IMG/VR virus record: IMGVR_UViG_3300042923_000543
Span: 1 to 42,136 of that record
Length of the DNA: 42,136 nt
Direction: 5' to 3' (one strand)
Origin: a virus
Shown: in pieces, positions 5,861 through 34,619 of the stretch
How positions within the stretch are numbered: position 1 is the stretch's first letter
Layout of the letters: each line of letters starts with the position of its first letter
Translations under genes and position numbers: made by a program
The notes under the pieces: model-generated
Databases searched by the model: none
Seen by the model: the letters and a program-made list of their open reading frames with translations, nothing else
What the model was told of the DNA's origin: nothing

Positions 5861-8851
5861 TCAGTATCTTGCATCGGCACATATATACCCACTGGTAGTT
5901 TTATATAATATCGAATAATTTGCCCCGGCTGAATATGCACCACCGCCAAAAACCATCACAGGCTTGTCTTTGTTAATTGGCCCAGTACTTAATGTGCCGG
6001 TTGCATTTGTGACGTTGGATAAGTCTCTGATCTCCCAATCCGTTCCTCGTGTTCCTGCAATACTAACTATAAAATCTTTCATCAGTGAAGTCGGTATATT
6101 TAATTTTAAAAACAAAGTATCAGACAAACTCACAACAGTTGTTGTATTTGCGTATGAATTGGCCGTTGTTCCAATATCAAAAAATACTTGTTTTTGTGAA
6201 TTAAGTAATTCTTCATAATATGTTGTTGGTCTAAAGTCAAGCGCATTACTGCCTATATCTATTTGTACCTGAGCTATATCAATTACACCTGTGTTAAAAG
6301 CCTCCGAGGTGATTTCTCCGAAACTTGCAGCGCCAATATCGGAACTCCAAGCCATAATAAAACCAATCGAAAGTCTATTGTCGGCACTAACCGTTTTCCC
6401 TGCCAAGTTTTTTGTATGAAGCACAGCAATATACTTTTTCCATTCTGATGTTAGAGTGAATTTAGTTCCGTTAAGTAACTCACTTACTACTCCAGCGGTA
6501 TCGTATATCTGCGTAGCAGTAATACCTATTTTTTTATTCGCGATATTACTTCTGGCATAGAATGAAACCGTTAAGTCCTGTCCACCACAATATAATTTAC
6601 AACCATTCGGTATGATCGTGTTGTCAACTAAATAATTTGTTGTACCTAGTGTCATATCTCCGACCACTTCAACTCTTTTACAATAATCGGATAGTGGCAA
6701 TTCTCCTGCTATGGATTTTCTTGAATGCTTAATACTAGTCGGCGGTGTAGATACTGATAAATTAGTATTCCATATATTGAATACAGGGTATGCTCCACTT
6801 CCTGGGTTAACCACCTCTACCCCTAACGGTATCCTTTGTGCAATTTGGAAATTCCCATCTATCAGTATGCTAGGTACTGGCATTGCTCCATGATTATTAT
6901 TCATTATTCCTAGTAATGGCATTGTTACATTGGCACAATAGTTTGCCGCACCAACCCCATTGCTTGGGCTGATCCATTCGATAGCACCACTAACAAGAGT
7001 AACATTATTCGCTATGCATTCTTTCATTAGTTCAGAGGCAATATTCATATCTTTATAACCTATAACATCTACAACCCACGGGATTGGAGTTGCCCAATAA
7101 CCGCCATTTTGATAAGTTCCATAAGTCGGCTCGGTATAAAATGCATATGCCTCCCATACATGAATGCCATGTTGATATTCTTGACTAATTGGCACATGCC
7201 TTATTGCACCTTTATAGAATATATCTAACCTGTTATTTTTATATGTATTTACTAATTTGTTGGCAATAGCATTAATTCTATCAAATGTAGGAATTCCAAG
7301 ATAAACTGCTAAGCAACTTCCCCATACATCTGGTTGATCTTTGCACAATCCTGTTGAGCACTTAAACAATCCTTCAATGTGCCTCTCTGTTCCATTGTCA
7401 ACTAATGTTTGAGTCCAAAATGTACTATTAATACTATATTTTAGCGTTTCGCATTTTCCCATGTAATAAACTTTGTCAGATACATCACTATTAGCGTTTG
7501 CCAATATTGCTAATTGTGCATATGCCTGATATGCTAAAACACTTATAAAGAATAAATCTCCTGTCATTCTAACAGTATCCCAAAAACCATATGTCCTGAC
7601 TGTAGCATCAACAGGTAATGAAACAAGACCATTATTAGGATTATAAGGCATTCCTAAATCCATTATATTTTTTAACATATCCTTAAATTCAGAATAAAGT
7701 GCAGTAGAACCCGTTTTCCTATAGTATTGATAGAATATATCTATAAGAAATGCTTGATTGTCAAGACTTGATCTACTACCATCTGGAGGCCACCCAATAG
7801 ATCCGTCAAGGAATATCGCATCTGGCACATTATATATAAACACTCCACTTGTCGGTATTCTATCCATAAAAAAGCGAATAATATTTTCTATTTCACTTGT
7901 TGTAAAATAATCTAGATATCCATTCAGCATATAATCGAAATCCCTTGTATATATACCTGCATATCCTCCGGGGTTCCATATTGAAATTGACGGTGTTGTC
8001 GTGGTCGTTTGTTTGGCAATATTTAATACCTTTACTGCAGCATCTAAGATACTGGCATTAAACATATCTATTTTATTTTGCTTCTTGTAATTAAGGATAT
8101 CGATTAGGTCAACAACATTAATAACATCTACCAATTGTGCTTCAATATCAACAATTTTTAGCCTTAAACTGCCTTTGCCTTTTCGTGCATCAATAACCTC
8201 GGAATCTTGCTGATGCTCTGCGGTTAATGTATTAAATCTAGTTTCTATATCTATTATCTTATTTTCTGCATCCTCCGTAGCTGAAAGCGCACCATCCTTA
8301 GCTGAATGGGCTGCTATTGCTGCCGATAGTGCTCCCTGAGCAGCAGCATTGGCATTATTAATCGCATTAGTAGTATTGGTCTGTCTTAATTCCTCTGCTG
8401 CCATTCTGGCAACTTCTCTATTCTCAATTATTACACACCTAGTAACTAATGCTTCATATACCGATAAATCTCCAGTATATTGCCCTGCTGCATCAATGCA
8501 ATCTCCTACAAAGAACGGTTCAATGAATGACTTCCATTTTACCTTTCCCGAAAGATCATTAGCCTTAAGTTGAAGGAAGATAGCACCCTCTGAGCCTAAA
8601 TCATTGGCCGCGATATACCAGGTAAGATCAATCGAATTGTCCGATACTAACATATCTATGAATGCCGTTTCGTTTGTGGTGTTATCTTCATATCGTATAT
8701 CAAGGAAAAACGCTAAAGATGATAGATCTATTTCGTTGGTAATATATCTGGGTATGCGAAATACTCTGATCGATGAATTAGTATCTGTCTCTACTCCTAG
8801 AAATCTTTCCTCCGGTGGAACGATCATCCGTCTGTTTTTTACGGTTATCAT
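5861..8851 (-). CDS. Receptor-binding tail protein with six-hairpin glycosidase-like domain
   Basis: A 996-residue protein. Start ATG 8851 (MITVKNRRM) follows GAGAGGGG; a start further upstream has no site. Residues 1-125 form a beta-rich domain like baseplate/tail attachment domains. Residues 140-270 are alanine-rich helices, a likely trimeric stalk. Residues 290-660 resemble an (alpha/alpha)6 six-hairpin glycosidase, with the blocks YTRDFDYMLNGY, QPDVWGSCLAVYLG, HGIHVWEAYAF, GGYWATPIPWVV and GAIEWISPSNG. Acidic residues in these blocks are candidate catalytic groups. Residues 700-870 look like a carbohydrate-binding jelly-roll, ending at DFRPTTYYEE. The C-terminal 120 residues are beta-rich. 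Inferred role: adsorption and cleavage of a surface polysaccharide. The glycosidase family and substrate are not identified. Confidence 0.78.
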   Translation of the reverse strand: MITVKNRRMIVPPEERFLGVETDTNSSIRVFRIPRYITNEIDLSSLAFFLDIRYEDNTTNETAFIDMLVSDNSIDLTWYIAANDLGSEGAIFLQLKANDLSGKVKWKSFIEPFFVGDCIDAAGQYTGDLSVYEALVTRCVIIENREVARMAAEELRQTNTTNAINNANAAAQGALSAAIAAHSAKDGALSATEDAENKIIDIETRFNTLTAEHQQDSEVIDARKGKGSLRLKIVDIEAQLVDVINVVDLIDILNYKKQNKIDMFNASILDAAVKVLNIAKQTTTTTPSISIWNPGGYAGIYTRDFDYMLNGYLDYFTTSEIENIIRFFMDRIPTSGVFIYNVPDAIFLDGSIGWPPDGSRSSLDNQAFLIDIFYQYYRKTGSTALYSEFKDMLKNIMDLGMPYNPNNGLVSLPVDATVRTYGFWDTVRMTGDLFFISVLAYQAYAQLAILANANSDVSDKVYYMGKCETLKYSINSTFWTQTLVDNGTERHIEGLFKCSTGLCKDQPDVWGSCLAVYLGIPTFDRINAIANKLVNTYKNNRLDIFYKGAIRHVPISQEYQHGIHVWEAYAFYTEPTYGTYQNGGYWATPIPWVVDVIGYKDMNIASELMKECIANNVTLVSGAIEWISPSNGVGAANYCANVTMPLLGIMNNNHGAMPVPSILIDGNFQIAQRIPLGVEVVNPGSGAYPVFNIWNTNLSVSTPPTSIKHSRKSIAGELPLSDYCKRVEVVGDMTLGTTNYLVDNTIIPNGCKLYCGGQDLTVSFYARSNIANKKIGITATQIYDTAGVVSELLNGTKFTLTSEWKKYIAVLHTKNLAGKTVSADNRLSIGFIMAWSSDIGAASFGEITSEAFNTGVIDIAQVQIDIGSNALDFRPTTYYEELLNSQKQVFFDIGTTANSYANTTTVVSLSDTLFLKLNIPTSLMKDFIVSIAGTRGTDWEIRDLSNVTNATGTLSTGPINKDKPVMVFGGGAYSAGANYSILYKTTSGYICADARY

Positions 8852-9490: not shown

Positions 9491-10753
9491 CTAGTTAGCT
9501 CCACTATTGAAAGTGGAGGCAGTTTCTACACGGATCATAAAGGTCTGTGTTAAGATTTCTGCGGTCTTTGTGGACTTCCATCCGCAAGTTGCCTTCTGGT
9601 TTAATGGATCAGATGTTCCACCGGAACCAAGCTGCTTAATAATATTTTCTAAGCCGCCACCTTCGATCATGGTTACACCGTAAGCATTTGAACCTAATAC
9701 CAATGTAGAGTATACATCACAACCTGCTGCTCCTGCCTCACCAGGATAGATTACAGTGTCAACAGCAACTGTCAAGGAAGTTGTTAAGGTAATTGTTGCC
9801 GATCCGGCTGCAGCTGCACTTGCGCTTTCAATCTCATATTGAGACGTACCGATTAATACCTTACGACCTACTAATGCAGTTGCATCAGCTGCGGTGATTA
9901 ATTCCTTAACTGCGATTGTATCTGCTGCAACCGTAATAGCTGTCTTTACAGATAAATTTCTAGCACCAGCGGTTAAGTCTGCTGCATGAAAGATTTTTGA
10001 CTCTGTGGTCTCAACATAACGTACCCCACCGATCTCTCCAATTTCTCCTCTAAATATCTTATCCGATGTGGTGTACTTTTGAATATCTACCCACTTATCA
10101 GATTGCATGATATCATAGGAAACATCCGGATGGATGATTGCTACATAGGATCCGTTAATCTTAGGTGCATTTTGTACCTTAAGATATCTAGCGGCTTTAT
10201 TGGAGCCAACAACCGTCATCTTATCATTTGTTTGGTCAAGGTCATATCTGTGGGATACTGTGCCATCACCATACTGTACAGAGGTACCTGCATTAATAAC
10301 CTCCCTGGTAACTGTATCGAGAGTACGACCTGACTGATCGCCTAACAGAGTAAGAGACTCAACAATATTGTTGTCGATGGATGTAAGCAACAACATATCA
10401 GAAAGCGTGATGTAATCACCATACTGAGATACCGTTGCGGTTACCGTTGTTACATTAAGAGGCTTGCCATCCGGTACTACAGCCTCAACAAGAGGAGTAG
10501 TTGCCTTGGGAAGCGGAGAATAACGTCTAAACTCTACTGTCTTACCGCCATTCTTTGGAATTGGCTTCTTCTGGCCGAACTGATCATGAACGAGATTTGG
10601 AGTTGCATTCTTGATCAGCACCTTATCATAAAATGTCTTCATCTCCGGAGAAAGATCATTTCCGGCTGTTGCTGATGTAGTTGTATTCACAACCTGATCA
10701 AATTTGGTCAGGTTCAATGAGAAATAAATCTTATTTGTTAATAATTCCTTCAT
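9491..10753 (-). CDS. Major capsid protein, N4-gp56 family
   Basis: A 420-residue protein with start ATG 10753 behind AGGGGG. Residues 37-85 carry the family signature, including FYDKVLIKNATPNLVHDQFG and a GGKTVEFRRYSPLPKA block. The remainder is the HK97-type shell fold with an inserted alanine/threonine-rich beta domain around residues 250-330. Residues 13-19 read LNLTKFD. The same seven residues stand near the N-terminus of the scaffold. They resemble the LNLQFFA-type site cut by Prp protease, and a Prp-like gene lies three genes upstream. The first 19 or so residues are therefore probably removed during assembly (inference). Scaffold upstream and head protein downstream fit a head operon. 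Confidence 0.93.
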   Translation of the reverse strand: MKELLTNKIYFSLNLTKFDQVVNTTTSATAGNDLSPEMKTFYDKVLIKNATPNLVHDQFGQKKPIPKNGGKTVEFRRYSPLPKATTPLVEAVVPDGKPLNVTTVTATVSQYGDYITLSDMLLLTSIDNNIVESLTLLGDQSGRTLDTVTREVINAGTSVQYGDGTVSHRYDLDQTNDKMTVVGSNKAARYLKVQNAPKINGSYVAIIHPDVSYDIMQSDKWVDIQKYTTSDKIFRGEIGEIGGVRYVETTESKIFHAADLTAGARNLSVKTAITVAADTIAVKELITAADATALVGRKVLIGTSQYEIESASAAAAGSATITLTTSLTVAVDTVIYPGEAGAAGCDVYSTLVLGSNAYGVTMIEGGGLENIIKQLGSGGTSDPLNQKATCGWKSTKTAEILTQTFMIRVETASTFNSGAN

Positions 10754-10789
10754 TATGGTTTCCCCCTATTCTGATTTGCCGGGGAAAGA

Positions 10790-11704
10790 TTATAGATTAA
10801 TCGTTTCCCCCATACTGACACGTCTTAATACTTCCTCTAAGTCCTTGTCAGTCCATTTACTAGGATCATTTTTTACGATAACACCAGCTGAGGAATTAGC
10901 ACCGTTCTCTGAAGGTCTTGACTTACGGGATTGAATATTGTTGACAATCTCTTCTTTCCCTTTTTGCTCTGCCTGTTGTGCTACTGTGGGAAGGATCTTA
11001 TCAAAATTAACTGCGTGATAAGCTGCTTTCACATCTCCTGTAGCTTGCAATACCTGAATAAATTGTTTACCTGACTGAGGATTTCTTATCTCGGCATCGA
11101 GATTGAAATCGGGATACTGGCTCTTCATCGAATTGGCTTGTCCAAGCCAATTGTTATAAGTCTCCTGTGCTCCCCGTCTCTGCTCTTCCGACTCTCTTTG
11201 CTTACGGAAATACTCATTCTCAGCTTCAATTCTCTTCTGGTATTTATACTGTTCGACAGTCAAACCTTCTGTCATTGCTTCCTGCTCCCAAAGGGAGTTG
11301 TCATCCTCAATTGCCTTGGCCAGTTTTGCTGCATCACCATCATTAATGCCGTACCGTTGACTGAGTACATCCATAATGGGCTTTAAGTCGTTAACCTGCT
11401 TTTCAAGAGTTTTAGTCTCTTTGAAACGGTTATTGATAATTCCATGGATTCTCTCATCGAATAAATCTTTGTAATCACCCATGATCATCTTCTCGAAATC
11501 AGCTTTTCTAGCTTCAGGATCCGGTGTTGCTGGTGGTTGTTCCTTGGCGGCCGGAACTTCTTCTTCGGCTGATACTTTACCGTATACAACCTTAGCTTCG
11601 CCCTGTCCTTCCTCGGCGGCAGGAAGAGTATTTCCATCGCCCGTGGGTGCTGCTGCCTCACCATCAAATTTAGTGAGGTTCAGCGGATATAAAAACATTC
11701 TCAT
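10790..11704 (-). CDS. Capsid scaffolding protein
   Basis: A 304-residue protein. Start ATG 11704 (MRMFLYPLNLTKFD) is chosen for its AAGGGG site; a start at 11740 has none. It is acidic and alanine/proline-rich up to residue 65. It is then a long helical, coiled-coil protein to about residue 230 (LEKQVNDLKP, KYQKRIEAENEYFRKQRE), with a short basic/serine-rich linker and a helical C-terminus that typically contacts the capsid. It lies immediately before the capsid gene. Residues 8-14 are LNLTKFD, shared with the capsid N-terminus and likely a Prp-type cleavage site. Confidence 0.88.
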   Translation of the reverse strand: MRMFLYPLNLTKFDGEAAAPTGDGNTLPAAEEGQGEAKVVYGKVSAEEEVPAAKEQPPATPDPEARKADFEKMIMGDYKDLFDERIHGIINNRFKETKTLEKQVNDLKPIMDVLSQRYGINDGDAAKLAKAIEDDNSLWEQEAMTEGLTVEQYKYQKRIEAENEYFRKQRESEEQRRGAQETYNNWLGQANSMKSQYPDFNLDAEIRNPQSGKQFIQVLQATGDVKAAYHAVNFDKILPTVAQQAEQKGKEEIVNNIQSRKSRPSENGANSSAGVIVKNDPSKWTDKDLEEVLRRVSMGETINL

Positions 11705-11808
11705 AGGTTTTACCCCTTTCCTTATCATGGTCTTTCCCAAGAGTCAGGCATATATTGCCATCTGATAATGTTATAGCACAAAGAGTAAATAAATTTCTCC
11801 CCTATGCT

Positions 11809-12321
11809 TTATTCTGCTAATACCCAATCCGTTGCAAGTACATCATTGATACTTGGAACCCACATTGCATGAGATCCATTGACCATCTTAATTTGCAAGT
11901 ATGGCTCACATCTGAACAAATCACCTTCATTCATTCCCCATGCATTGGCTGTCTGTGCATTACAAGGGATACCGTTTGGATATCCTTTCTGGTAGACTAC
12001 GAACATACCCTTACCATTCCATCCCTCACGCATAACCTTCCTGCCATTTTTCAGATGCCTTAAAGCATCTCCAAATCCAAATGTTAGAACATATTCACCA
12101 TTATAAGCAGGGCTGTTATGATAATCAGCTATTTCCCACTCATTGCTGATGATGTTCCCTAAAGTGTAAAGTACATCTTCAGTTTCCCTAATATCGATAA
12201 TTCTTCCATCCTTGCAATGCATTTTAATAGATCCATCTTCGATGCACCAATAACCACTCCATGAAGGTAATTTCACCTTTGCACCTTTTTTCATAAACTC
12301 CATAGCCTGTTCAAATTTCAT
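11809..12321 (-). CDS. Tandem Tad2-like (DUF2829) protein, candidate anti-Thoeris sponge
   Basis: A 170-residue protein with start ATG 12321 behind AAAGGAG. The C-terminal half (residues 80-170) matches the DUF2829/Tad2-like pattern: FGDALRHLKNGRKVMREGWN, then GKGMFVVY, then PYLQIKMVNGSHAMWVPS and a DVLATDWVLAE end. The N-terminal half (residues 1-65) is a second, divergent copy: FEQAMEFMKKGAKVKLPSWSG ending in NEWEIAD. Known: Tad2 proteins bind and sequester the cyclic ADP-ribose-type signal made by Thoeris ThsB. Inferred: this protein may do the same, with one or two altered ligand pockets. Its place between protease and scaffold genes is unusual, because counter-defence genes are usually early. 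It could instead be a structural protein reusing the fold. Confidence 0.72.
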   Translation of the reverse strand: MKFEQAMEFMKKGAKVKLPSWSGYWCIEDGSIKMHCKDGRIIDIRETEDVLYTLGNIISNEWEIADYHNSPAYNGEYVLTFGFGDALRHLKNGRKVMREGWNGKGMFVVYQKGYPNGIPCNAQTANAWGMNEGDLFRCEPYLQIKMVNGSHAMWVPSINDVLATDWVLAE

Positions 12322-12354
12322 ATCATTTTCTCCTTTATATTTTTGATAAATAAG

Positions 12355-12666
12355 TTACCACTCTACTGATACATTATCCGGATATTGATCTGCTAAGAGA
12401 ACATAACCCAACATAATTGTATTAATAATGATCCTTGCTTCCTCTGCTGTCTGAGCAGTCGGCACAATGCTGATATGTAATTCTCCATCCTCATATGTAT
12501 TGACGTGGCTTCTTTCCGCGTCTAAGTCAGTGAGGGCATTAATCAGCGTATAACCTAACACGGATGCAGCACTGCACACTACATCCATCCCCGGCTTATA
12601 TCCGGAATGCCCTACAATATCAATCGTATATTCTTTTCCATCACGAACACATTTTATATTAGTCAT
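12355..12666 (-). CDS. prp: Prp-like cysteine protease (head maturation)
   Basis: A 103-residue protein with start ATG 12666 behind TAGGAG. It has the Prp (YsxB) fold signature: the GHSGY block gives His20 and DVVCSAASVLGY gives Cys31. The spacing matches the His-Cys pair of the host enzyme that trims ribosomal protein L27. Known: host Prp also trims scaffold and capsid proteins of some staphylococcal phages at LNLQFFA-like sites. Here the phage carries its own copy within the head operon. Its likely targets are the LNLTKFD motifs in the scaffold and capsid two and three genes downstream. Specificity for LNLTKFD is an inference. Confidence 0.88.
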   Translation of the reverse strand: MTNIKCVRDGKEYTIDIVGHSGYKPGMDVVCSAASVLGYTLINALTDLDAERSHVNTYEDGELHISIVPTAQTAEEARIIINTIMLGYVLLADQYPDNVSVEW

Positions 12667-12674
12667 ATATACTC

Positions 12675-14579
12675 CTATCTTGGACTAGCTACGTTAGCAG
12701 CTGTCTGTTTCGCATTGGTTACTATTCCACCGCTCCCGGCTTGTACCGCTCTACCTAGAATGTTGGTCTGCATCGTACCACCTATGTCAGCTTGTGGCAT
12801 TTGTACTCCATATTGCTGAGCTAACTGAGGCATTATAGAAGATCCCGTCATTGCATCGACAATTTGCGCCAGTTGTAAGGAGGTTTGAACCAGAGTGCTA
12901 TTTTGAGATATTTTACTAACAATTCCGTTCTTTCCATCAAATGACATCATATCAAGTGCCATGAGTGCCTGATCTGCTAGCTGTGGATTGAAGAAACCTG
13001 CGGAGTATAATTCTTTGGCCATCTCATTCATTGCAATTGTGGAGAACGGAGATGCTTTTTGTGCCCGGATTTCAATATCAAATATCGGTCTACGGTAGAT
13101 TGTCTCGCCTCCCGAACCTAATTGAGGTAAATCCTGAATTCCTTGGCTGGTGTATGTTACATACTCATCATTTCCGTTCGGGCCAGTGATACGGAACTTC
13201 CTAGGCTCAGTATAAAACTGTCTTATCAGCTCCAAACAAAGAATATTGATTTCCTCAAATGCTCTGTAGGATGCCTTTATCATATCCCTGCTTCCCTTAC
13301 TCCCTGCTTCCTGTAATGCGGCAATCGCAGAAGCTGCTGTAACACCCGAGGCTGTACTTCCTTGTGAAAAATCTCGATTTCCGGAGGTCTCCTTAAGCTC
13401 TTCAATTTTGTTCGTTCTGTGGTTGATGATATAAGGATCAAGAGGCTTAGTCTCATAAATCTTATAATTTTCCTCCTTAAACCCACCTTTTGTAACGTGA
13501 ATAATCCTTTTGGATGGATCCATTAACTCATCTTCGTTAATTCCGACATCATCTCGCAACATAACCCTAGATACACCTGCTTCAAAGGCATTTATCATGA
13601 TAATCTGGTCTAACTTATCGATGTAAATCTGAGGATCCTTCATTACATCGACATGGCCAAAACCTCCCGGGGTATCTTCTTCAGGGAACAATACATCGAA
13701 TGTAAATGGATAACGTGCATGATCATACAATCCTTTATCATGCATCTCCGGATCATTCTCTGTGCTTTCCAGTACCACTCCATTACAGAATTTACAGAAG
13801 TGAAGAATGTCCTTGATTGAGCCGTCCTCTGCTTCGATTGATTGCTTGTAATACCAATCGATAACAGCTGATTTGTTGGAAGTATCGATTTCATCATTAT
13901 GCTCGAATTGTCCTATCATTGACTCAGGAGCACTGCCCAACTTATCTTTGAGTTGAGGATACTTTGCAAGTAACTTGTCATTATTCAACAATGCAACCAG
14001 AAAAACATGGCTTGACTCCTGAATATCCTCAATGCCCGGCTCCCAGAATAAGTTAAGAGGGTTAATCTTCTTGATCACGATATCCCCTAATCCATTTTCT
14101 AATGAGTTATCCCAAAAGGTGCCATATATTCCAAGACCGTTCTTTAACTTCTTCCAACCGTTTTGTGAGTAGGTTGTCTCAAATTTTGCCCTTTTGAGAA
14201 TTACTGGAAGAATAGCTGATATTGTTTCAGCTTCTTTCTTATCTGACTCTTCCCTTGGTAACACCTGAGGCTCAGGAAAGTTATCCATGATGTCAGCATG
14301 TTTGTTATTCAACGAATTAAATAACCAAGCCGATGTGGGCTCAGGCTTCTTTCCTTCCGACTCTGCCCTAATTTGGTCCCAATGGCGCATCCGGTACCAC
14401 TTATCATTTTCAATAATTCTTTTATCAAAATTCGCTTTGCCGGCCTTATAATCCTCCAATATTCTTGCAGCCTCACTAATTTTTAATTCATCTACCGGTA
14501 GTTTTACCGGTGCCGGCTTCTGACTTTCCGGTACAAATGTCTGAGTTAACTTTTCTCTTACTCTTTCTATAACACCCAT
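12675..14579 (-). CDS. Portal protein
   Basis: A 634-residue protein with start ATG 14579 behind AAGGGAGA. It follows large terminase directly and precedes the head protease. Residues 60-130 (WYRMRHWDQIRAE, TSAWLFNSLNNKHADIMDNF), the central GTFWDN and PLNLFWEPG segments, and the helical region with TASGVTAASAIAALQEAG are typical of podovirus portals in Firmicutes phages. The C-terminal 90 residues are Q/G/A-rich and may form the barrel or a disordered tail. It forms the dodecameric DNA channel at the capsid vertex. Confidence 0.9.
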   Translation of the reverse strand: MGVIERVREKLTQTFVPESQKPAPVKLPVDELKISEAARILEDYKAGKANFDKRIIENDKWYRMRHWDQIRAESEGKKPEPTSAWLFNSLNNKHADIMDNFPEPQVLPREESDKKEAETISAILPVILKRAKFETTYSQNGWKKLKNGLGIYGTFWDNSLENGLGDIVIKKINPLNLFWEPGIEDIQESSHVFLVALLNNDKLLAKYPQLKDKLGSAPESMIGQFEHNDEIDTSNKSAVIDWYYKQSIEAEDGSIKDILHFCKFCNGVVLESTENDPEMHDKGLYDHARYPFTFDVLFPEEDTPGGFGHVDVMKDPQIYIDKLDQIIMINAFEAGVSRVMLRDDVGINEDELMDPSKRIIHVTKGGFKEENYKIYETKPLDPYIINHRTNKIEELKETSGNRDFSQGSTASGVTAASAIAALQEAGSKGSRDMIKASYRAFEEINILCLELIRQFYTEPRKFRITGPNGNDEYVTYTSQGIQDLPQLGSGGETIYRRPIFDIEIRAQKASPFSTIAMNEMAKELYSAGFFNPQLADQALMALDMMSFDGKNGIVSKISQNSTLVQTSLQLAQIVDAMTGSSIMPQLAQQYGVQMPQADIGGTMQTNILGRAVQAGSGGIVTNAKQTAANVASPR

Positions 14580-14594
14580 GATTATTTCTCCCTT

Positions 14595-16025
14595 CTATTT
14601 GCTGTACCAATCGTATCTATCATATTTCTTATCATCGTTGAACATATTCAGAGGATCAAACTGCTGCGCTTCGCTCTGCTTCTTGCGTATTACCGGCCTA
14701 ATCGGTCTTGACATGCAGAAATACCTTGTTTCATCTGCCACATGATCTTCACCATCTGTATCAAGATCCTCAGGCTTGGTATCACTGTATTGCAATAGCG
14801 GTATGGTTCGAATAAATGCTTTGCAGGTGCTAAAGATGTACATCATTGGATATCCTTCATCATCAAACTCTAGGCGATAATGCATCTGCATCCATCCAGG
14901 GATTCTTTCGTTATCACCCTTACCAAAGTAGATACCGTACCTTACCGCTACATCATTCACGGACTCTCCTCTGGAAGCATCCCATATGGAGGGATCCGCA
15001 ACTCCATAGATTTGTTTCCCCTTAAGCCATCTATGTTCACTCTCTACCTTTGCTGCCTCTTTAAACATCTTGTCTGGTGTCCACTTAACTCCTTCATTCG
15101 GTTCTTTGGTGCACCCATACATCTCGAGAATCCTATATATCCTACCATCGTAATCAATGGTCCACCATGCCATACTGAAAGGCTTCGCGTAACCAAAGTC
15201 AAAGGATCTATAGATTGGCCATTCCTTCGGGATCTCAAATGGTTCTATGACATGGGTCCATCTTCGCTCCTTACGAGGATTGAGGACTTTATTCTCACCC
15301 TCACCATATGGTTCAATTCGGTCTATGAAGTCCTCCCAGAACTGTCCTTCGAATATATCCCAATTACCATATCTGTGAGCTTGTTTTAGTTTTTCCGGAA
15401 GATTATCGAGTATCTGTATGTATTCTGGATTATTCTCCATAATCGCATAGTTATCATCTACCGTAGCAGGGATATACTCATAATCATCTGGATTTTCATT
15501 GTCATTGTACTTCGGTTTCACAAATAACCGCTTGAACCAATTGTGACCTACTCCTCCAGGATTGCCGGTGAAATACATTCTAGGTTTGAAGTCAGTTCTT
15601 GTGTTACGATTACATGTCATAAGATATTGAACCTGTGCCCATGTGAAGTGCGTACATTCCTCAATTCCTATTACGTCATATTCCTGACCTTGGTATTGAT
15701 AGATGTCATTCTCATGATCACAGTATCCAAGCTTAAGCCTGCTGCCATTAGGGAAGGTAAATGCTCTTTCATCCTTGTTATACTTCGCAATCCCATATAG
15801 CAGTTGCATCAATGGTAAAAGATGATTTTCTCTTAACTCTGGCAATGTCTTTCTTAGGAGAAGCAATTTCAAATTTGTATAGCTAAAGGCTAATAATACA
15901 AGTTTTGTTCTAAGTCCCCAGCTCTTTCCTCCTCCTCTTGCTCCACCATACCCTATAAATCTCTTCCTACTAAGGAAAAAAAGTTCTTGCTTAGGATTTG
16001 GTCTTGATATCGCAATTGTCGGCAT
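14595..16025 (-). CDS. terL: Terminase large subunit
   Basis: A 476-residue protein. ATG 16025 follows GGGGTGG; an in-frame GTG at 16034 is the alternative. The ATPase has Walker A GGARGGGKS at residues 27-35 and Walker B VIGIEE at 118-123. The coupling motif region follows (TGNPGGVGHNW). The RNase H-type nuclease starts at SFDFGY with its first acidic residue; later acids lie in VADPSIWD and DGEDHVADETRY. It packages DNA into the prohead and cuts it. The start abuts the small-subunit stop. Confidence 0.95.
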   Translation of the reverse strand: MPTIAISRPNPKQELFFLSRKRFIGYGGARGGGKSWGLRTKLVLLAFSYTNLKLLLLRKTLPELRENHLLPLMQLLYGIAKYNKDERAFTFPNGSRLKLGYCDHENDIYQYQGQEYDVIGIEECTHFTWAQVQYLMTCNRNTRTDFKPRMYFTGNPGGVGHNWFKRLFVKPKYNDNENPDDYEYIPATVDDNYAIMENNPEYIQILDNLPEKLKQAHRYGNWDIFEGQFWEDFIDRIEPYGEGENKVLNPRKERRWTHVIEPFEIPKEWPIYRSFDFGYAKPFSMAWWTIDYDGRIYRILEMYGCTKEPNEGVKWTPDKMFKEAAKVESEHRWLKGKQIYGVADPSIWDASRGESVNDVAVRYGIYFGKGDNERIPGWMQMHYRLEFDDEGYPMMYIFSTCKAFIRTIPLLQYSDTKPEDLDTDGEDHVADETRYFCMSRPIRPVIRKKQSEAQQFDPLNMFNDDKKYDRYDWYSK

Positions 16026-16026
16026 C

Positions 16027-16881
16027 TCAACCACCCCATTCTTTCATATCACCCTCTAATGTGATTGTGATATCTGAAGTTACTGTTGGATCCTTCACTT
16101 TGCTCCTATATGCGTCAATTTTGGCTTTCTGCTCCTCGGTTGCTAAGTTCATATGATCCGCTAACCATTTAAGGGCTTTCATTTTATCTGACAGTTTGAT
16201 ACTTGCCCCGTCTTTTCCCTGCTTCACTTCGCTGATCAGGCTGCCATCCAGGTATAGAGAATCTTTGAACTTTACGACATTTACCTCTTTCGTTACCGGA
16301 GTTTTCTTTTTTGTTTTTTCATCCTCCACCATAATAGGACCAAACGGACCCATTACCTGAACCGTTTCCCTACCAAATTCAACATAATCAGTAATGTCAG
16401 CAAATGCGATATCCATGTATTTCTGGAAGATATCATCCTCATGCAACAACTCTCTGTTCAGCCTATTTTGCTTAAGGCGAAGGATCTCTTTTTTTACTCC
16501 ATCGTTTTCCAACAGGCGATAGGATATAGAAGCAGCTGTTTTATAATCCACTCCATATGCTTTCTCATATGCTTTTGTGGCATTGAAATTACGAACAAAT
16601 AAAAGGCAAAAATGTTTTTGTTTTTCTGTGAGTTCTGAATTTTGATCTAACAGTAAAATATCTTCATTTATGTCATTTTTTTTACCTTTTGAAGAATTAT
16701 TGCGAACGCTCGCTTTTCCGTCCGAACGTTCGCTATCCCAACCATAGGTACATTTCCACCTTCTAACAGTGCCATCCGGAACGCTTAGTTGACTTGCAAT
16801 CTCAACCAATTTCATACCGCTTTTATATAGTTTGAAGGCTTCATTGATAATTTTCTTTTTCTCATCAGGGGCTCTGGCCAT
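16027..16881 (-). CDS. terS: Terminase small subunit
   Basis: A 284-residue protein with start ATG 16881 behind GAGGTT. Residues 1-50 form a helix-turn-helix (LYKSGMKLVEIASQLSVPDG, TVRRWKCTYGW). Residues 80-145 match the terminase_2 domain (LTEKQKHFCLLFVRNFNATK, AYEKAYG, SISYRLLEN). The C-terminal region is a longer beta/helical extension. It recognises the packaging site and recruits the large subunit. It is the first gene of the late operon, separated from early genes by a terminator at 16957-16985. I found no clear sigma-A late promoter between them. Confidence 0.9.
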   Translation of the reverse strand: MARAPDEKKKIINEAFKLYKSGMKLVEIASQLSVPDGTVRRWKCTYGWDSERSDGKASVRNNSSKGKKNDINEDILLLDQNSELTEKQKHFCLLFVRNFNATKAYEKAYGVDYKTAASISYRLLENDGVKKEILRLKQNRLNRELLHEDDIFQKYMDIAFADITDYVEFGRETVQVMGPFGPIMVEDEKTKKKTPVTKEVNVVKFKDSLYLDGSLISEVKQGKDGASIKLSDKMKALKWLADHMNLATEEQKAKIDAYRSKVKDPTVTSDITITLEGDMKEWGG

Positions 16882-23964: not shown

Positions 23965-25608
23965 CTATGCAAATCTAAGTTGCTGACGACTATCATCAAT
24001 CTGTATATTACCGATACGCTCACCCACCCTGAGATAATAACAATTTGCTTCAGCGAGAACCTTAGACATTGTAGGTACCACCGAATTTCCTATTCTTTTC
24101 ACCTGCTCACTCTTCGGGTATGGTTTACCATTCTTCATAGTAAAGTTGATGATATAATCTTTGGGGAATTCTTGCCCTAGTTTTAGTTCTTCAGCATCCA
24201 GCATCCTGAGATAGATATCAAGTATCGCATATTCATTTCCAAGTACGGTAATAAGGGCAAATCTGTCTTTGGTCACGACAGTGTGTAATGGATCATTAAG
24301 AGACTGCCCTATCCCACATCCGTAATATTCCATGATGAACTGCGATACCCATGTACATTTTTGAGCTGTCTCTGCATCTACTCCATTAGCTATTAGTTGT
24401 TTATAATCAACTGCAAGTATTGAGACTTGTCCGAAATGGCCTGCGCTAGTTGTAATTGTGTGTATCGGCTCGAATAATGATTGACCTATTCCCGTTTTAT
24501 AAAACTTTGTAAGAAAAGCAGCTACTAATGCATACCTTGGTGATGTATCAATAGTCATAATTGGATCCTTGACTGATTGTCCTCTAACTCCACTCTTTGA
24601 TGTTTCAGAATGATACTGAATTAGCATAGGCGATATCAGACAATGCTCATTTTTAGTGACTACCGTTGACATAGGATCTGTGACTGATCGATTTCTATCT
24701 TTAGAAAATCCCGTTTGTCCTATCTGCATGATGTAAGGAGTAACAACTCCATACCCATGTTTTTGTGTAATGGTTGTTATTGGCTCGTGAATGCTTTGAC
24801 CTCTGAAATTATCGCCACCATGATTAACTTGCACTATAAATGGTTCCTTACTGTTGAAAACAAACTTGTCCATACCTGCGCCAATACGGTTCATTGTTTT
24901 ATCTGCCAACGGCTTCTTGCGCCCAAATATGGACTTACCAAGATCATTAAAATTTATATAATCCGCTATTGGCTCCCATTTCTTCAATCCATTGGTACCA
25001 TATCTGTTATGCGTAGGCACTGGCCATACTATTTGCTTATCATCAGATCGGAATACTGCATACCAACGCTTTCTTGTAGTGTGTGCTCCATAATCAGCTG
25101 CTACAAGCTCTTTGCATTCAAACCGAAATCCAAGGTTTTTCATAAGCTTTATAAACTTTTTGTAATACTCACCTTTTCGCTCTTTGATTGGCTTATCATT
25201 CTCATCGAGAGGCCCCCAGTCTTGGATTTCTGCTACATTCTCCATCATTACAACTTCAGGTAAATAACCTGTGACCTCTAAAATCTGCTTACACAGTCGG
25301 TAGACTCCCATTGGTAATATACGCAATCCTCTTTTGATTGGTTTATCACCCTTCGCTCGTGAGTGACTTGTGCAATCCGGAGAAGCCCAAATCATTCTTA
25401 CTCTTTGACCTTTTTTCAGATACTTTCGCAAATCGACTTTAAGCATATCTTCCGTTAGATGCAACGTATCTGGATGGTTTTTCATATGCATTGCAATAGC
25501 ATCCGGATCATGATTAATTGCTATATCAATAGATCTACCAAGAGCCATTTCTATTCCAACGCTTGCCCCACCTCCGCCTGCAAAGCAATCAATGATAATA
25601 TCCTTCAT
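23965..25608 (-). CDS. DNA (cytosine-5) methyltransferase with repeat-rich target domain
   Basis: A 547-residue protein; start ATG 25608 overlaps the stop of the upstream gene by four bases. Motif I is DCFAGGGGAS (7-16). Motif IV is SPDCTSHSRAKG with catalytic Cys79 (PDC instead of PPC). Motif VI is MMENV with Glu123. A motif VIII-like stretch is TTRKRWYAVF. The C-terminal GNSVVP is motif X. Between motifs VIII and IX, about 240 residues hold five degenerate repeats of the type GQSxxDPxxTIxTxxxxxLV, which form the target-recognition region. It probably methylates cytosine in phage DNA against host restriction. It forms a unit with the helicase-methyltransferase gene upstream. Confidence 0.92.
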   Translation of the reverse strand: MKDIIIDCFAGGGGASVGIEMALGRSIDIAINHDPDAIAMHMKNHPDTLHLTEDMLKVDLRKYLKKGQRVRMIWASPDCTSHSRAKGDKPIKRGLRILPMGVYRLCKQILEVTGYLPEVVMMENVAEIQDWGPLDENDKPIKERKGEYYKKFIKLMKNLGFRFECKELVAADYGAHTTRKRWYAVFRSDDKQIVWPVPTHNRYGTNGLKKWEPIADYINFNDLGKSIFGRKKPLADKTMNRIGAGMDKFVFNSKEPFIVQVNHGGDNFRGQSIHEPITTITQKHGYGVVTPYIMQIGQTGFSKDRNRSVTDPMSTVVTKNEHCLISPMLIQYHSETSKSGVRGQSVKDPIMTIDTSPRYALVAAFLTKFYKTGIGQSLFEPIHTITTSAGHFGQVSILAVDYKQLIANGVDAETAQKCTWVSQFIMEYYGCGIGQSLNDPLHTVVTKDRFALITVLGNEYAILDIYLRMLDAEELKLGQEFPKDYIINFTMKNGKPYPKSEQVKRIGNSVVPTMSKVLAEANCYYLRVGERIGNIQIDDSRQQLRFA

Positions 25609-28157
25609 ACTACCTCCTTATCTATCTCAAGAAAGTCAAATAGTGTAGGTGTCTCAATCTGCTCCTCTGCTCCCTTGCAGTAGCCAACACCATCCCTGAA
25701 GTAATCAGAATTGAGTTCTATACCGTATCCGCGTCTTCCATTCTCAATCGCTACCTTAGGTACCGTCATTAATCCGGCGAACATATCAAGTACAGTATCA
25801 CCCTCATTCGAATACCTGTTAATGATCCGCTCCACAATATCAATTTGCAATGGACATACATGCATCTGTAATCTTCTCCGACTCTGGTCTGTATTGAGCG
25901 TTTTCATGCGGTTGATATCATCCCATACCTCATCTGACCAACTGCCAGGTGCTACTACCATGAAGGTTGCTGGAAGCTTGTCCATGGTATCTAATTCCTT
26001 AGCTAGCTGCACATGCTCGTGATAGCTATAGATACTGTTCTTTGAGTACTTACGATATACGTTCTGCAAATTATCAACTGATACACTTGATAACTCATCC
26101 TTACTTACAAGACGATTACCTGAACTTCTCCAGAATGCATGAGCGTCTATCTGCCATTGCGCTCTGGTATAGTCTTCCTTAGTCTTAGTCACCGGATCAT
26201 CTGCATAGGCGGTACTGGTGTCTGATGGAAGCTTGCGGAAGAGAAGAATATATTCCGGGCAACCCACACCCATCTTCGAACCATCCTTACACTGCTCTGT
26301 CCATCCAAGGCGGTAAGTCTGGTTATTCTCTCTTACTACATCCGTGATAACCGTAATCATGCCAAAGTAATGAAATCCATGCTTTATGTAATGATTTATG
26401 CAAATTGCATGGAATGGCTCGATTGTCGGCATTCCTGTGCCGGTTGCATTACCGAATAATACACGGTCCTTAACATGAATTGCCATCACCCTGCCGGGCT
26501 TAAGGATTCTGAAGAGCTCCGGAGTTAGGAAGTCCATCTGCTCGAAGAACATGTCCGTATCTTTGTTATGCCCGAAGTCGTTATAATTTGCAGAATACTC
26601 ATAATGATTACCGAATGGGATTGAGGTATGTATCAAGCCTATGCTGTTACTCTGCATCCTCTTTGTTGCTTCCACACAATCATCATTAACCGCTGTGAAA
26701 TGTTTCCCTTCAACCTTCACTGTCTCAACTCCCATCTTTCTCTTTAATCGTTCGGTTTTATTTGTTGCAGATAATCCATACTTCTTCACAATTGCGATCA
26801 TTTTATTAACCATATAGTTATGATCTGTCCACTTTCTCAATAAGGCTTCTTTGATCTGCCGTTCATTCTCCATGTAAATGATGTCGATAACAACATTTTT
26901 CTTCTGGAGAAAGCGGTAAATCCGGTGAACTGCCTGTATAAAATCATTAAATTCATAATCGATACCAAGGAAGATGGCTCTATGACAATGCTTCTGAAAG
27001 TTACATCCGGATCCTGATAACTCTTTCTTTGTGGCGAAATACTTAATCTTACCATTGGAGAAGTCGATTACCCTCTTTTCCCGTATGTCATAATCCTGAT
27101 TTCCGAAGATATCCACTGCTGCCGGTATGGCTTTCTTTATGGCCAGACGTTCAGCTTCAAGATCATGCCATAAAATGTAGCAGTCATTCGGGCTCTCATT
27201 GAGTAATTCAGCCATTTTTGAGACTCTGGCATCAATGCTCTCACGCTTAATTTGAGCTTCATCCTGAAGTGATACTGCTGCCTCCTGAAATAACATAACC
27301 TGACCGTTCTTATCAGTCTTATCTCCATAGCTGATTGGCAGCTCATGCCACCTTACTTCCATTGGAGGTAGATCATATCCTTCGTCTGAGTAATCCGGAT
27401 TGAGATCCGATGGCATAGTTACAAATAATGCCCAGCTACTCACCCATAACCAGAATTCATCCTCCATATTAGGATATAGAGTTAGGTTATTGGCTTTCGC
27501 GCTGTCTCTCTGGAAGAACCTTGTTAAAGATTGTCCGGTGTCCATAATCTCCAGATACCCGGCATAATGGATTAGCTCTTTATATCGGTTCGGTGATGGA
27601 GTAGCCGTGGCTACCAGTTTATATTTAACTCCCTTGAATTTATCGAGGAAGGTCTGGTATGTCTTAGATCCGAAACTCCGGAGAACAGAGGCTTCATCCA
27701 GTGAAGTTGCGGTGAAGAATGAAGGTTCGATATCTCCATCCCTGACACGTTCATAGTTGGTTATCAAGATATCTCCCGCTGCCTCGTGGACTTCTTGCAT
27801 ATTCCTGACATACTTTGGATGGTCCATGCGAAGTAGCTCAACTGCATCATGAGTGAACTCCTGCTTCACTCCCAGAGGTAAGACAATCAATGCCTTTCCA
27901 CCCTCATGCTTAATAGCCAGCCGGCAGAATTCCAACTCCTGAATGGTCTTACCAAGTCCAAAGCTTTCAAATAGAGCTCTTCGACCGCCCTTTAATGCCC
28001 ACCATACAGCATCCTTCTGGTGAGGCTTCAGGCAGTTTGATATTTCTGATCGGTCAATCTCAATACCACTGTCAGTCGCTATCTCAATTTTGGTATATAG
28101 AAATTCCTCATAGGTCATTATCCTGCCTGCCTTTCTTTTCGCCTGGGTCGTAAACAT
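25605..28157 (-). CDS. Helicase-DNA methyltransferase fusion, 850 aa
   Basis: ATG 28157 overlaps the stop of the preceding gene (TAATG); ATG 28118 is an alternative. Residues 40-430 form an SF2/SNF2-type helicase: motif I SFGLGKT (65-71), motif II LDEAS, motif III TATPSP, and a C-terminal RecA lobe ending at QAVHRIYR (motif VI). Residues 480-850 are an adenine/N4-cytosine methyltransferase in permuted order: motif IV TSIPFGNHYEYS first, then the FAG motif I in VLDMFAGLMTVP near the end. The catalytic motif reads SIPF instead of the usual (D/N/S)PP(Y/F). From memory this variant is shared by phage relatives. Inferred role: modification of phage DNA with translocation. Anti-restriction or a link to replication is possible. 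Confidence 0.88.
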   Translation of the reverse strand: MFTTQAKRKAGRIMTYEEFLYTKIEIATDSGIEIDRSEISNCLKPHQKDAVWWALKGGRRALFESFGLGKTIQELEFCRLAIKHEGGKALIVLPLGVKQEFTHDAVELLRMDHPKYVRNMQEVHEAAGDILITNYERVRDGDIEPSFFTATSLDEASVLRSFGSKTYQTFLDKFKGVKYKLVATATPSPNRYKELIHYAGYLEIMDTGQSLTRFFQRDSAKANNLTLYPNMEDEFWLWVSSWALFVTMPSDLNPDYSDEGYDLPPMEVRWHELPISYGDKTDKNGQVMLFQEAAVSLQDEAQIKRESIDARVSKMAELLNESPNDCYILWHDLEAERLAIKKAIPAAVDIFGNQDYDIREKRVIDFSNGKIKYFATKKELSGSGCNFQKHCHRAIFLGIDYEFNDFIQAVHRIYRFLQKKNVVIDIIYMENERQIKEALLRKWTDHNYMVNKMIAIVKKYGLSATNKTERLKRKMGVETVKVEGKHFTAVNDDCVEATKRMQSNSIGLIHTSIPFGNHYEYSANYNDFGHNKDTDMFFEQMDFLTPELFRILKPGRVMAIHVKDRVLFGNATGTGMPTIEPFHAICINHYIKHGFHYFGMITVITDVVRENNQTYRLGWTEQCKDGSKMGVGCPEYILLFRKLPSDTSTAYADDPVTKTKEDYTRAQWQIDAHAFWRSSGNRLVSKDELSSVSVDNLQNVYRKYSKNSIYSYHEHVQLAKELDTMDKLPATFMVVAPGSWSDEVWDDINRMKTLNTDQSRRRLQMHVCPLQIDIVERIINRYSNEGDTVLDMFAGLMTVPKVAIENGRRGYGIELNSDYFRDGVGYCKGAEEQIETPTLFDFLEIDKEVV

Positions 28158-28408
28158 TATAGGTTCTTCGCATATCGTTCCCTCCATTGTGATTTGTTCT
28201 GAGTAAATGGTATCTTATCGGCTGATACCCTTTCCCATCCTTCCGGCATCTGTATGAGCTCAGGCTTCTCTATTTCAATCAGACTCATAATTGAACCTCT
28301 ATTTCCATCTAATCGGCAGCAAGTATACAGAAAACAAAATTCGCATTGTTCCTGATTACAATTGGTAATTAGAATCTTAGCTTCTTCTTCGCTACAAATT
28401 ATTTTCAT
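28157..28408 (-). CDS. Cysteine-rich small protein, 83 aa
   Basis: ATG 28408 (MKIICSEEEAKILI) lies six bases after GGAGG. It overlaps the end of the RNase H-like gene and the start of the fusion gene. Cysteines cluster at residues 5, 19, 22, 25, 30 and 31 and suggest metal binding. The C-terminal part is amphipathic. Unknown function; the tight coupling suggests an accessory to the neighbouring DNA enzymes. Confidence 0.65.
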   Translation of the reverse strand: MKIICSEEEAKILITNCNQEQCEFCFLYTCCRLDGNRGSIMSLIEIEKPELIQMPEGWERVSADKIPFTQNKSQWRERYAKNL

Positions 28409-33035: not shown

Positions 33036-34619
33036 ATGGCAAGGTATGCGATATATTTAAGAAAATCTAGAGCTGATGATAGCAACTCATCTGTTGAAGA
33101 AACTCTTTCACGACATGAAGCTCTTCTTCTTGAAACTGCTAAAAGAATGCAATTAAATATTGTAGATATATATCGCGAAGTTGTATCAGGAGAAAACATT
33201 ATTGACCGTCCACAAATGCGACTTCTTTTAAATGCAATTGATGAAGGTAAATATGATGGTGTATTAGTTGTAGAAATAGAGCGCTTGGCTCGTGGTAATT
33301 CTATAGATCAAGGAATTATAGCTCAAAGTTTTCAATTATCAGATACCAAAATTATAACTCCAAATAAGATTATTGATCCCAATAATGAGTTTGATTCTGA
33401 AGCTCTTGAATTTGGGTTGTTTATGTCTCGTAGAGAGTATAAGACAATTAACCGCCGTATCCAGCGTGGTCGTATTGCTTCAGCAAATGAAGGGAAGTTC
33501 CTCGGTTCCACTGCTCCATATGGTTACGAGCGTGTAAAAATATCAGGCGAAAAGGGATATACTCTTGCTTTAGTTCCTGATCAGGCAGATGTCATTAACA
33601 AGATCTTCGAGTGGTATACCATCGGTGATTTGCAACCGGATAACACTTATCTCAAATTAGGTGCTACTAGAATAGCTCGAAAGTTGAATGAACTTGATAT
33701 AAAACCTCTGGTCAATGATAAATGGACCAAGTCTTCTATTACCGACATTCTAAAGAACCCTGTTTATATAGGTATGATCCGCTGGTCCTATCGTAAAGAG
33801 AAAAAGATTGCAAAGGATAGTAAGATCTCTAAGGTTCGAAGGAAATCGGAAGAATACATCGAAGTGAAAGGTCTACATGAACCCATTGTCAGTGAAGATA
33901 CCTTTAAAGAAGCGCAATCTATCATATCCAAAAGAGGTCATGCACCTGTACCTGGTGGCAATGTACTTAAAAATCCTCTTACCGGATTAATCTATTGTTC
34001 CAAGTGTGGCTCCTTAATGACTAGGCTAGCACAAAACACTAAGACACCGTATGATACTATCAAATGCCCGAATGTGTATTGTGACAACATCTCGTCTCCA
34101 CTCTATCTCGTGGAAGAGGTTGTTATTGATGCCTTACGTAATTGGCTTATTAATTTCAAAGCGAAGTGGGAATCCGAGAGAGTTGATATGCCTTACTCTA
34201 AGGCAATTAAAGATGCGGCGGCAGTTCTGGAGCAACTGAAATTAAATCATGAGAAATTAAATGCTCAAAGAGATAAACTATATACCCTTTTAGAACAAGG
34301 AGTGTATTCGATCGATATCTTTAAAGAGCGTAATAAGAAATTGGAGGATGAAAAAGAACGCTTGTTATCACTTATTGATAAGACCGAAATTGAGATATCA
34401 GCATTAGCTCAACAGTCTAATTACAATGATATATTTATACCCATGGCTGACAATATCCTAACTCATTATTATGATCTTCCGACTGCTGCCGCTAAGAATG
34501 ATGCTTTACGAGATATCGTATCTAGCATCAGTTACCTGAAAACAGAACATAACAAGAAGGGGAACCGCGATAATACAAACTTCACAATCAGCATAAACCC
34601 TAAGGTTGTTGATATTTAA
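33036..34619 (+). CDS. int: Large serine integrase
   Basis: A 527-residue protein with start ATG 33036 behind GGAGGTG. Residues 1-145 are the resolvase catalytic domain: Ser11 in YLRKSRAD is the nucleophile, and ERLARG contains active-site arginines. The recombinase domain follows (APYGYERV, NPVYIGMIRW). A zinc ribbon starts at CSKCG and ends at KCPNVYC, around residues 325-350. A coiled coil spans about 385-465. It catalyses attP x attB recombination for integration without host factors. A directionality factor for excision is not recognised here. The gene has its own control region. Confidence 0.95.
   Translation: MARYAIYLRKSRADDSNSSVEETLSRHEALLLETAKRMQLNIVDIYREVVSGENIIDRPQMRLLLNAIDEGKYDGVLVVEIERLARGNSIDQGIIAQSFQLSDTKIITPNKIIDPNNEFDSEALEFGLFMSRREYKTINRRIQRGRIASANEGKFLGSTAPYGYERVKISGEKGYTLALVPDQADVINKIFEWYTIGDLQPDNTYLKLGATRIARKLNELDIKPLVNDKWTKSSITDILKNPVYIGMIRWSYRKEKKIAKDSKISKVRRKSEEYIEVKGLHEPIVSEDTFKEAQSIISKRGHAPVPGGNVLKNPLTGLIYCSKCGSLMTRLAQNTKTPYDTIKCPNVYCDNISSPLYLVEEVVIDALRNWLINFKAKWESERVDMPYSKAIKDAAAVLEQLKLNHEKLNAQRDKLYTLLEQGVYSIDIFKERNKKLEDEKERLLSLIDKTEIEISALAQQSNYNDIFIPMADNILTHYYDLPTAAAKNDALRDIVSSISYLKTEHNKKGNRDNTNFTISINPKVVDI

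Follow-up and report, generated by a model that had tools for sequence, protein, structure and literature searches.

What does a phage gain from encoding a protease of the Prp family, and which proteins would such an enzyme cut? The question is raised by a 42,136-nucleotide virus record, IMGVR_UViG_3300042923_000543 of IMG/VR (the whole of which we call the window), in which a Prp gene lies within the head operon. On the minus strand the genes run in the order terminase large subunit, portal, Prp, a Tad2-like protein, scaffold and major capsid protein, and the scaffold and capsid proteins carry the same heptapeptide, LNLTKFD, close to their N-termini. Our answer, to which we assign a probability of roughly 0.78, is that the phage Prp cuts its own scaffold and capsid proteins at LNLTKF'D (the apostrophe marks the cut), and that it belongs to a class of Prps whose substrate loop, L2, has been remodelled to read sites with a residue other than Gln at P3 and an acidic residue at P1'.

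The two copies of LNLTKFD were recovered when both open reading frames (ORFs) were read again, at the residues where the original prediction, a model's reading of the letters of this stretch, had placed them (Table 1). In the scaffold the heptapeptide follows MRMFLYP, in the capsid it follows MKELLTNKIYFS, and the ATG of each gene is preceded by a good ribosome-binding sequence. A 7-mer common to two 40-residue N-termini of such composition is expected by chance about 3e-6 times. When all six frames were scanned for the site pattern, the only matches were the capsid and scaffold sites and one chance match in a plus-strand frame. The accompanying claim that the peptide, rather than the DNA, is conserved rests on the relatives described below; the codon argument offered for it is weak on its own, because only 3 of 21 bases, each a synonymous change, set the two DNA copies apart, and the codon sets quoted were in reversed order relative to the proteins named.

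The heptapeptide has the look of a Prp site that has drifted away from that of host L27, as had been proposed. Prp from Staphylococcus aureus (SaPrp) cuts LNLQFF'A between F and A in ribosomal protein L27 (PMC9405229), and cuts similar sites in the capsid and scaffold of phage 80alpha (PMC5744158). By analogy with that F'A cut (PMC5744158), cleavage of LNLTKFD would leave Thr at P3, Lys at P2 and Asp at P1'; Asp as the P1 residue is ruled out on the same ground. Compared with LNLQFF'A, positions P6, P5, P4 and P1 are kept, while P3 has changed from Gln to Thr and P1' from Ala to Asp. Both copies have the general frame of a Prp site, lying near the N-terminus with a hydrophobic P6, N or D at P5, L at P4 and F at P1, and both depart from the canonical Q-type site, [LIMF][ND]LQxF'A, at P3 and P1'. 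In the SaPrp complex the P3 Gln hydrogen-bonds the L2 residues Gly29 and Asp31, and the P1' pocket fits a small residue only (PMC9405229), so that LNLTKF'D looks unfit for a canonical Prp.

The enzyme itself is the 103-residue protein, with His20 and Cys31, that had been singled out as Prp-like and as the phage's own. It passes the curated PF04327 cut-off of 27 bits with a score of 56.2 bits, and alignment to SaPrp places the residues that are essential there (G21, H22, D31, C34 and S38; PMC9405229) at G19, H20, D28, C31 and S35, with His20 and Cys31 as the catalytic dyad. An AlphaFold2 model (predicted local distance difference test score 91.9) was matched by Foldseek to 7kld, 2idl and 2g0i with template modelling scores of 0.75-0.82 (0.77-0.80 for the 7kld chains and 0.82 for 2idl). 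Judged by sequence and model, the protein is confirmed as a Prp family member with the Prp fold, and is predicted to be proteolytic. In the alignment L2 is its sole clear departure from SaPrp: the phage loop, GHSGYKPGMDVVC, is one residue shorter than its S. aureus counterpart, GHADHGEYGHDIVC. Counted as the residues between the catalytic His and Cys, the spacing is 10 in the phage enzyme and 11 in SaPrp, as it is in 52 of 53 host Prps. The phage Prp thus falls outside the host, L27-serving type with its L2 spacing of 11, and sides with the type represented by phage Cp-1, being encoded in a head operon and related to Cp-1 orf13 by a profile match.

To place this pair among its relatives we surveyed 162 related loci, with capsid homologues taken from 80 viral and 80 bacterial contigs, the bacterial ones nearly all from Clostridia; sites were recognised by a sequence pattern and scaffolds by where their genes lie, with some of them missed, and metagenome bins may combine organisms. 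Prp lies upstream of the capsid gene on the same strand in 103 of the 162 loci, at a distance of mostly about 1-1.5 kb and nearly always just upstream of scaffold and capsid. When entire viral records were searched, 40 of 50 contained Prp, in some cases far from the capsid. Nearly all capsids and scaffolds of Prp-bearing phages carry an N-terminal tag of the form [LIMFV][ND]LxxF'[ADGSE] or near it. These sites fall into two classes: a Q-type, LQxF'A/G/S, with the consensus [FLI][ND]LQLF'A, and a D-type with a non-Gln P3 and F'D/E, with the consensus L[ND]L[RTKHNS]LF'D. LNLTKFD is one member of the common D-type class, and neither new nor unique to this phage, a status that dozens of F'D relatives rule out. 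The finding that would have spoken against the original prediction, a relative with such a site and no phage Prp, was not seen among F'D-site phages with the upstream region to hand: every one of them encodes a Prp, including two in which it is very diverged (L072 and L073).

The Prp-like ORFs of those two loci came from a permissive search (clear at 1e-6 and 1.5e-5), by which the description of L020, L024, L072 and L073 as having neither motif nor Prp was revised. The ORFs in L024 (3489-3945) and L020 (6550-6979, +) are weak matches (0.08) that have GH...C motifs and a His-Cys spacing of 5. In L024 the N-termini of scaffold and capsid have a paired pattern of another kind, RL-HD, which may represent an additional site class. 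Elsewhere (L126, L141, L148 and L156), phage Prps with L2 insertions that bring the spacing to 22-25 are found with sites that have K, R or G at P3 and G at P1', a possible third code.

The evidence that carries our reading is the co-variation of loop and site. L2 spacing in phage Prps ranges from 6 to 25; a spacing of 11 pairs with Q-type sites, and other spacings, mainly the loop shortened by one residue to 'NPGND', pair with D-type sites. Among the 82 distinct phage Prps of the discovery set, P1' is acidic for 1 of 58 at spacing 11 vs 16 of 24 at other spacings (p=2.7e-10). An independent set was assembled from further viral loci through Prp alignments (A1-A3), with queries that chose Prps and not sites, and yielded 100 distinct new Prps, 77 of them with a readable site; two of these, L409 and L434, were scored at their true spacing of 11, read by eye. 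In this set P1' is acidic for 4 of 57 Prps at spacing 11 vs all 20 at other spacings (p=7e-15), and Gln occupies P3 in 95 of 101 sites vs 3 of 34. The two substrates agree, with an acidic scaffold P1' in 11 of 11 phages whose capsid P1' is acidic vs 5 of 58 others (p=2e-9). The four protease columns most strongly associated with an acidic P1' (26, 27, 28 and 30 in SaPrp numbering; p 6e-20 to 1.5e-6) all lie in L2, and the best column outside it reaches p=1.7e-4. D-type sites accompany spacings of 6 (L055, L062, L072), 7 (L010, L044), 10 (the window and many others), 13 (L186) and 16 (L059, L064, L392). The co-variation of protease and motif in relatives that had been put forward as a check is thus present and strong, and by this measure a diverged, dedicated protease-site pair is well supported at the level of sequence.

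A general pathway can be proposed. A Prp-family cysteine protease, made from the phage head operon, would cut LNLTKF'D in both substrates, so that the scaffold loses 13 N-terminal residues and the capsid protein 18. This trimming would probably take place as the procapsid assembles or shortly beforehand. The phage enzyme would represent a class in which L2 is remodelled and one residue shorter, of the '[NK]PG[NM]D' type, and this class would be the one that recognises sites in which P3 is not Gln and P1' is acidic. L27 N-termini in the surveyed host genomes read [LIVM][NSGD][LI]Q[LF]F'A. Since the D-type class would read a non-Gln P3 with an acidic P1', and the hosts have Gln and Ala at these positions, the phage pair is predicted to be orthogonal to host Prp and L27, with the qualification that these hosts are those of the relatives and may not be this phage's.

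The alternative that survives best, although we consider it improbable, is that the tag is cut by host Prp, and that the phage Prp is redundant or is aimed at another target. This is the arrangement in 80alpha, whose capsid and scaffold are cut by the host enzyme (PMC5744158), and it would suit the tagged relatives that have no Prp in reach, whose sites are equal or close to host L27 (LNIQLF'A in L118 and L183, ISLQFF'A in L164/L165). L118 even holds the relic of a Prp (6815-7124, +) in which the catalytic His, Cys and Ser are all lost, alongside a capsid tag that is the host L27 site. Overall, the tags of Prp-less phages are nearer to host L27 than those of Prp-bearing ones (5.1 vs 3.9 identities of 7, p=0.027). 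The Prp-less tagged phages are all Q-type, however, with no F'D-tagged phage among them, and the F'D tags are unlike any host L27 in the surveyed genomes. Moreover, there are tagged phages for which the phage Prp is the only Prp at hand, beside the tagged head genes, in genomes with a short L27 (G100 and G104). Such a short L27, without the extension, occurs in seven Clostridia genomes or bins (L283, L285, L289-L293). Both Prps adjoin phage head genes in G112 and G123, where L27 is short, and in G051, G053 and G054, where it is likewise short, searches found no Prp and the phage capsid is untagged. The second Prps present in genomes of Prp-less prophages lie beside other phages' head genes wherever the scaffold is readable; that they belong to the same phage is ruled out for G094, G096 and G099, where the contigs differ in size.

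Some results weigh against our preferred reading, in which the remodelled loop reads the F'D site and the phage enzyme cuts there. Prps of canonical spacing are found with sites that have Thr at P3 or an acidic P1' (L412, L449, L415 and L129), and Prps of non-canonical spacing are found with Q/A sites (L075, L026 and L068); with exceptions in both directions, L2 length is not the sole determinant. A likelihood test of correlated evolution favours the link between loop and site, with p~1e-6 on both the Prp tree and the capsid tree of the discovery set and p=1.5e-16 on the combined Prp tree, but such values can be inflated by clade-wide inheritance. The tag could also matter beyond cutting, because in 80alpha cleavage of capsid and scaffold is dispensable and the scaffold N-terminus, even uncleaved, is essential (PMC5744158).

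Slightly less probable than cutting by host Prp is that loop length and site type co-vary purely through the shared ancestry of head modules, with no functional link. Acidic-site phages do cluster in part in one capsid clade, and Prp-only trees are poorly resolved. Trees built from Prp alone or from the capsid alone held too few independent pairs to support a sign test. Against this, the association holds under phylogenetic models and in independent contrasts, of which a concatenated capsid, portal and terminase tree offers 9 that are well supported, 6 concordant and 0 discordant (median p 0.03). The association also recurs across loop architectures (spacing 6, 7, 10, 13 and 16) and in the independent set, and the associated columns all fall within L2 instead of being scattered along the protease. 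The same link appears in a host, G106 (locus L240), which has both the only non-Gln L27 site, INIGLF'A with Gly at P3, and the only odd host Prp, with an L2 spacing of 13. Least probable of all, and in our view very unlikely, is that the tag is a shared assembly signal, serving for example scaffold-capsid pairing or chaperone binding, which Prp adjoins by chance: the likeness of the capsid and scaffold tags and the behaviour of the 80alpha scaffold would suit it, but it does not predict that the tag should co-vary specifically with the substrate loop of a protease, and tags are absent where there is no phage or host Prp (L113, L116 and, as far as seen, L115) and from Bacillus phage Pascal, whose head gene region lacks a Prp.

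We also favour, with less assurance than for cleavage by the phage enzyme, a broader view in which the length and make-up of L2 largely set Prp specificity. There would then be two or more codes that exclude one another, among them Q-type F'A and D-type F'D, switched repeatedly by phages, letting a phage protease run beside the host L27 protease without cross-cutting. For example, consider the genome G091, in which the host pair is canonical (L27 site LNLQFF'A, Prp spacing 11) and the prophage L154 encodes a Prp of spacing 10 and carries LNLRLF'D in both scaffold and capsid. From their sequences, host and prophage are predicted to be two orthogonal Prp-site pairs in one genome.

In S. aureus Prp is an essential protein, and in several Firmicutes pathogens it is a proposed drug target. 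The basis of its narrow, species-specific site choice is unsettled (C. difficile Prp, for instance, does not cut the S. aureus peptide; PMC9405229); variation among phages points to L2 as the main determinant, and the natural phage Prps represent a ready panel of enzyme-site pairs. These findings further suggest that in many phages the 'ribosomal' protease gene most likely matures heads, that a phage Prp would allow growth in hosts with a short L27 and no Prp, and that host L27 need not be disturbed.

Table 1. Features of the head operon and the proposed protease-site pair, in window coordinates.
Feature	Position	Strand	Basis or remark
Terminase large subunit	14595-16034	-	PF04466/PF03237; head-operon context
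Portal, P22 type	12675-14579	-	PF16510 P22_portal 2.2e-27; head-operon context
Prp protease (MEROPS C108 / PF04327), 103 aa	12355-12666	-	PF04327 E=4.3e-15
L2 substrate loop, Prp residues 21-30, SGYKPGMDVV	12577-12606	-	between catalytic His20 and Cys31
Two-domain Tad2-like (Thoeris anti-defence) protein	11809-12321	-	PF11195, 5e-28
Putative scaffolding protein, 304 aa from ATG 11704	10790-11704	-	PHROG 13908 1e-70 (PHROG of unknown function)
Predicted cleavage site LNLTKF'D, scaffold residues 8-14	11663-11683	-	predicted cut between codons 11666-11668 and 11663-11665
Major capsid protein, 420 aa	9491-10753	-	PHROG 1357 major head protein 2.3e-80
Predicted cleavage site LNLTKF'D, capsid residues 13-19	10697-10717	-	predicted cut F18/D19

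We infer that the product of the gene before the capsid gene is the scaffold from gene order, with portal and Prp before it and the capsid after, and from its N-terminal site. The Tad2-like gene sits inside the head operon, flanked by Prp and scaffold. Elsewhere in the window a large serine recombinase (33036-34619, +; PF07508 and PF00239) suggests a temperate phage. In the region 23965-28187 (-), an 860-aa protein combines an SNF2-type helicase domain with an N6/N4 DNA methylase, and a C5 cytosine methylase comes immediately after it; 36909-41987 (-) holds a 1692-aa ORF with a GTG start and no Pfam match. There is no L27 gene in the record.

A head protease of the Prp family encoded by a phage has been described before, and the novelty implied for the phage Prp in the original prediction gives way to this precedent. 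Cp-1 encodes such a protease, which shortens the major head protein by 48 residues (Martin et al. 1998, as cited in PMC12445089; also PMC9405229). In the literature on Prp in phages we found only 80alpha/SaPI, Cp-1 and a passing mention of a Shewanella phage, subscription literature lying mostly outside the search; within what is searchable, there appears to be no earlier description of how widely Prp occurs in clostridial head operons, of the paired D-type sites or of the link between L2 and site. Cp-1 orf13 (MEROPS clan CR/C108) is recovered by the phage Prp profile (E=5.9e-5) and has in common with the window's enzyme that it is a phage-encoded head-maturation protease of the Prp family. 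Its loop is shorter still (GHGDDTDQSC, spacing 7). The Cp-1 head protein lacks an LNLxxF-type site and is cleaved much farther from the N-terminus, and no tag is seen in the Cp-1 scaffold. Lactococcus phage PLgT-1 shares with the window phage a Prp within the head operon and a tagged scaffold and head protein (LNLQLF'A and FNLQRF'A), but unlike it is Q-type, with the canonical spacing of 11. Its Prp (L479, 4001-4288) is labelled 'ribosomal protein' in GenBank and 'peptidase' in RefSeq.

The capsid (gp47) and scaffold (gp46) of 80alpha are substrates of the same kinds, with a site similarly near the N-terminus. That phage, without a protease of its own, relies on host Prp and Q-type sites, whereas the window phage pairs its own Prp with D-type sites. 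With S. aureus Prp (C108, PF04327; PDB 7kld, 4peo) the window's enzyme shares family, fold, the His/Cys dyad and the essential Gly, Asp and Ser, and an N-terminal, aromatic-ended site with F at P1. It differs in an L2 that is one residue shorter, in a predicted preference for T/F'D over Q/F'A, and in being encoded by the phage, beside its substrates.

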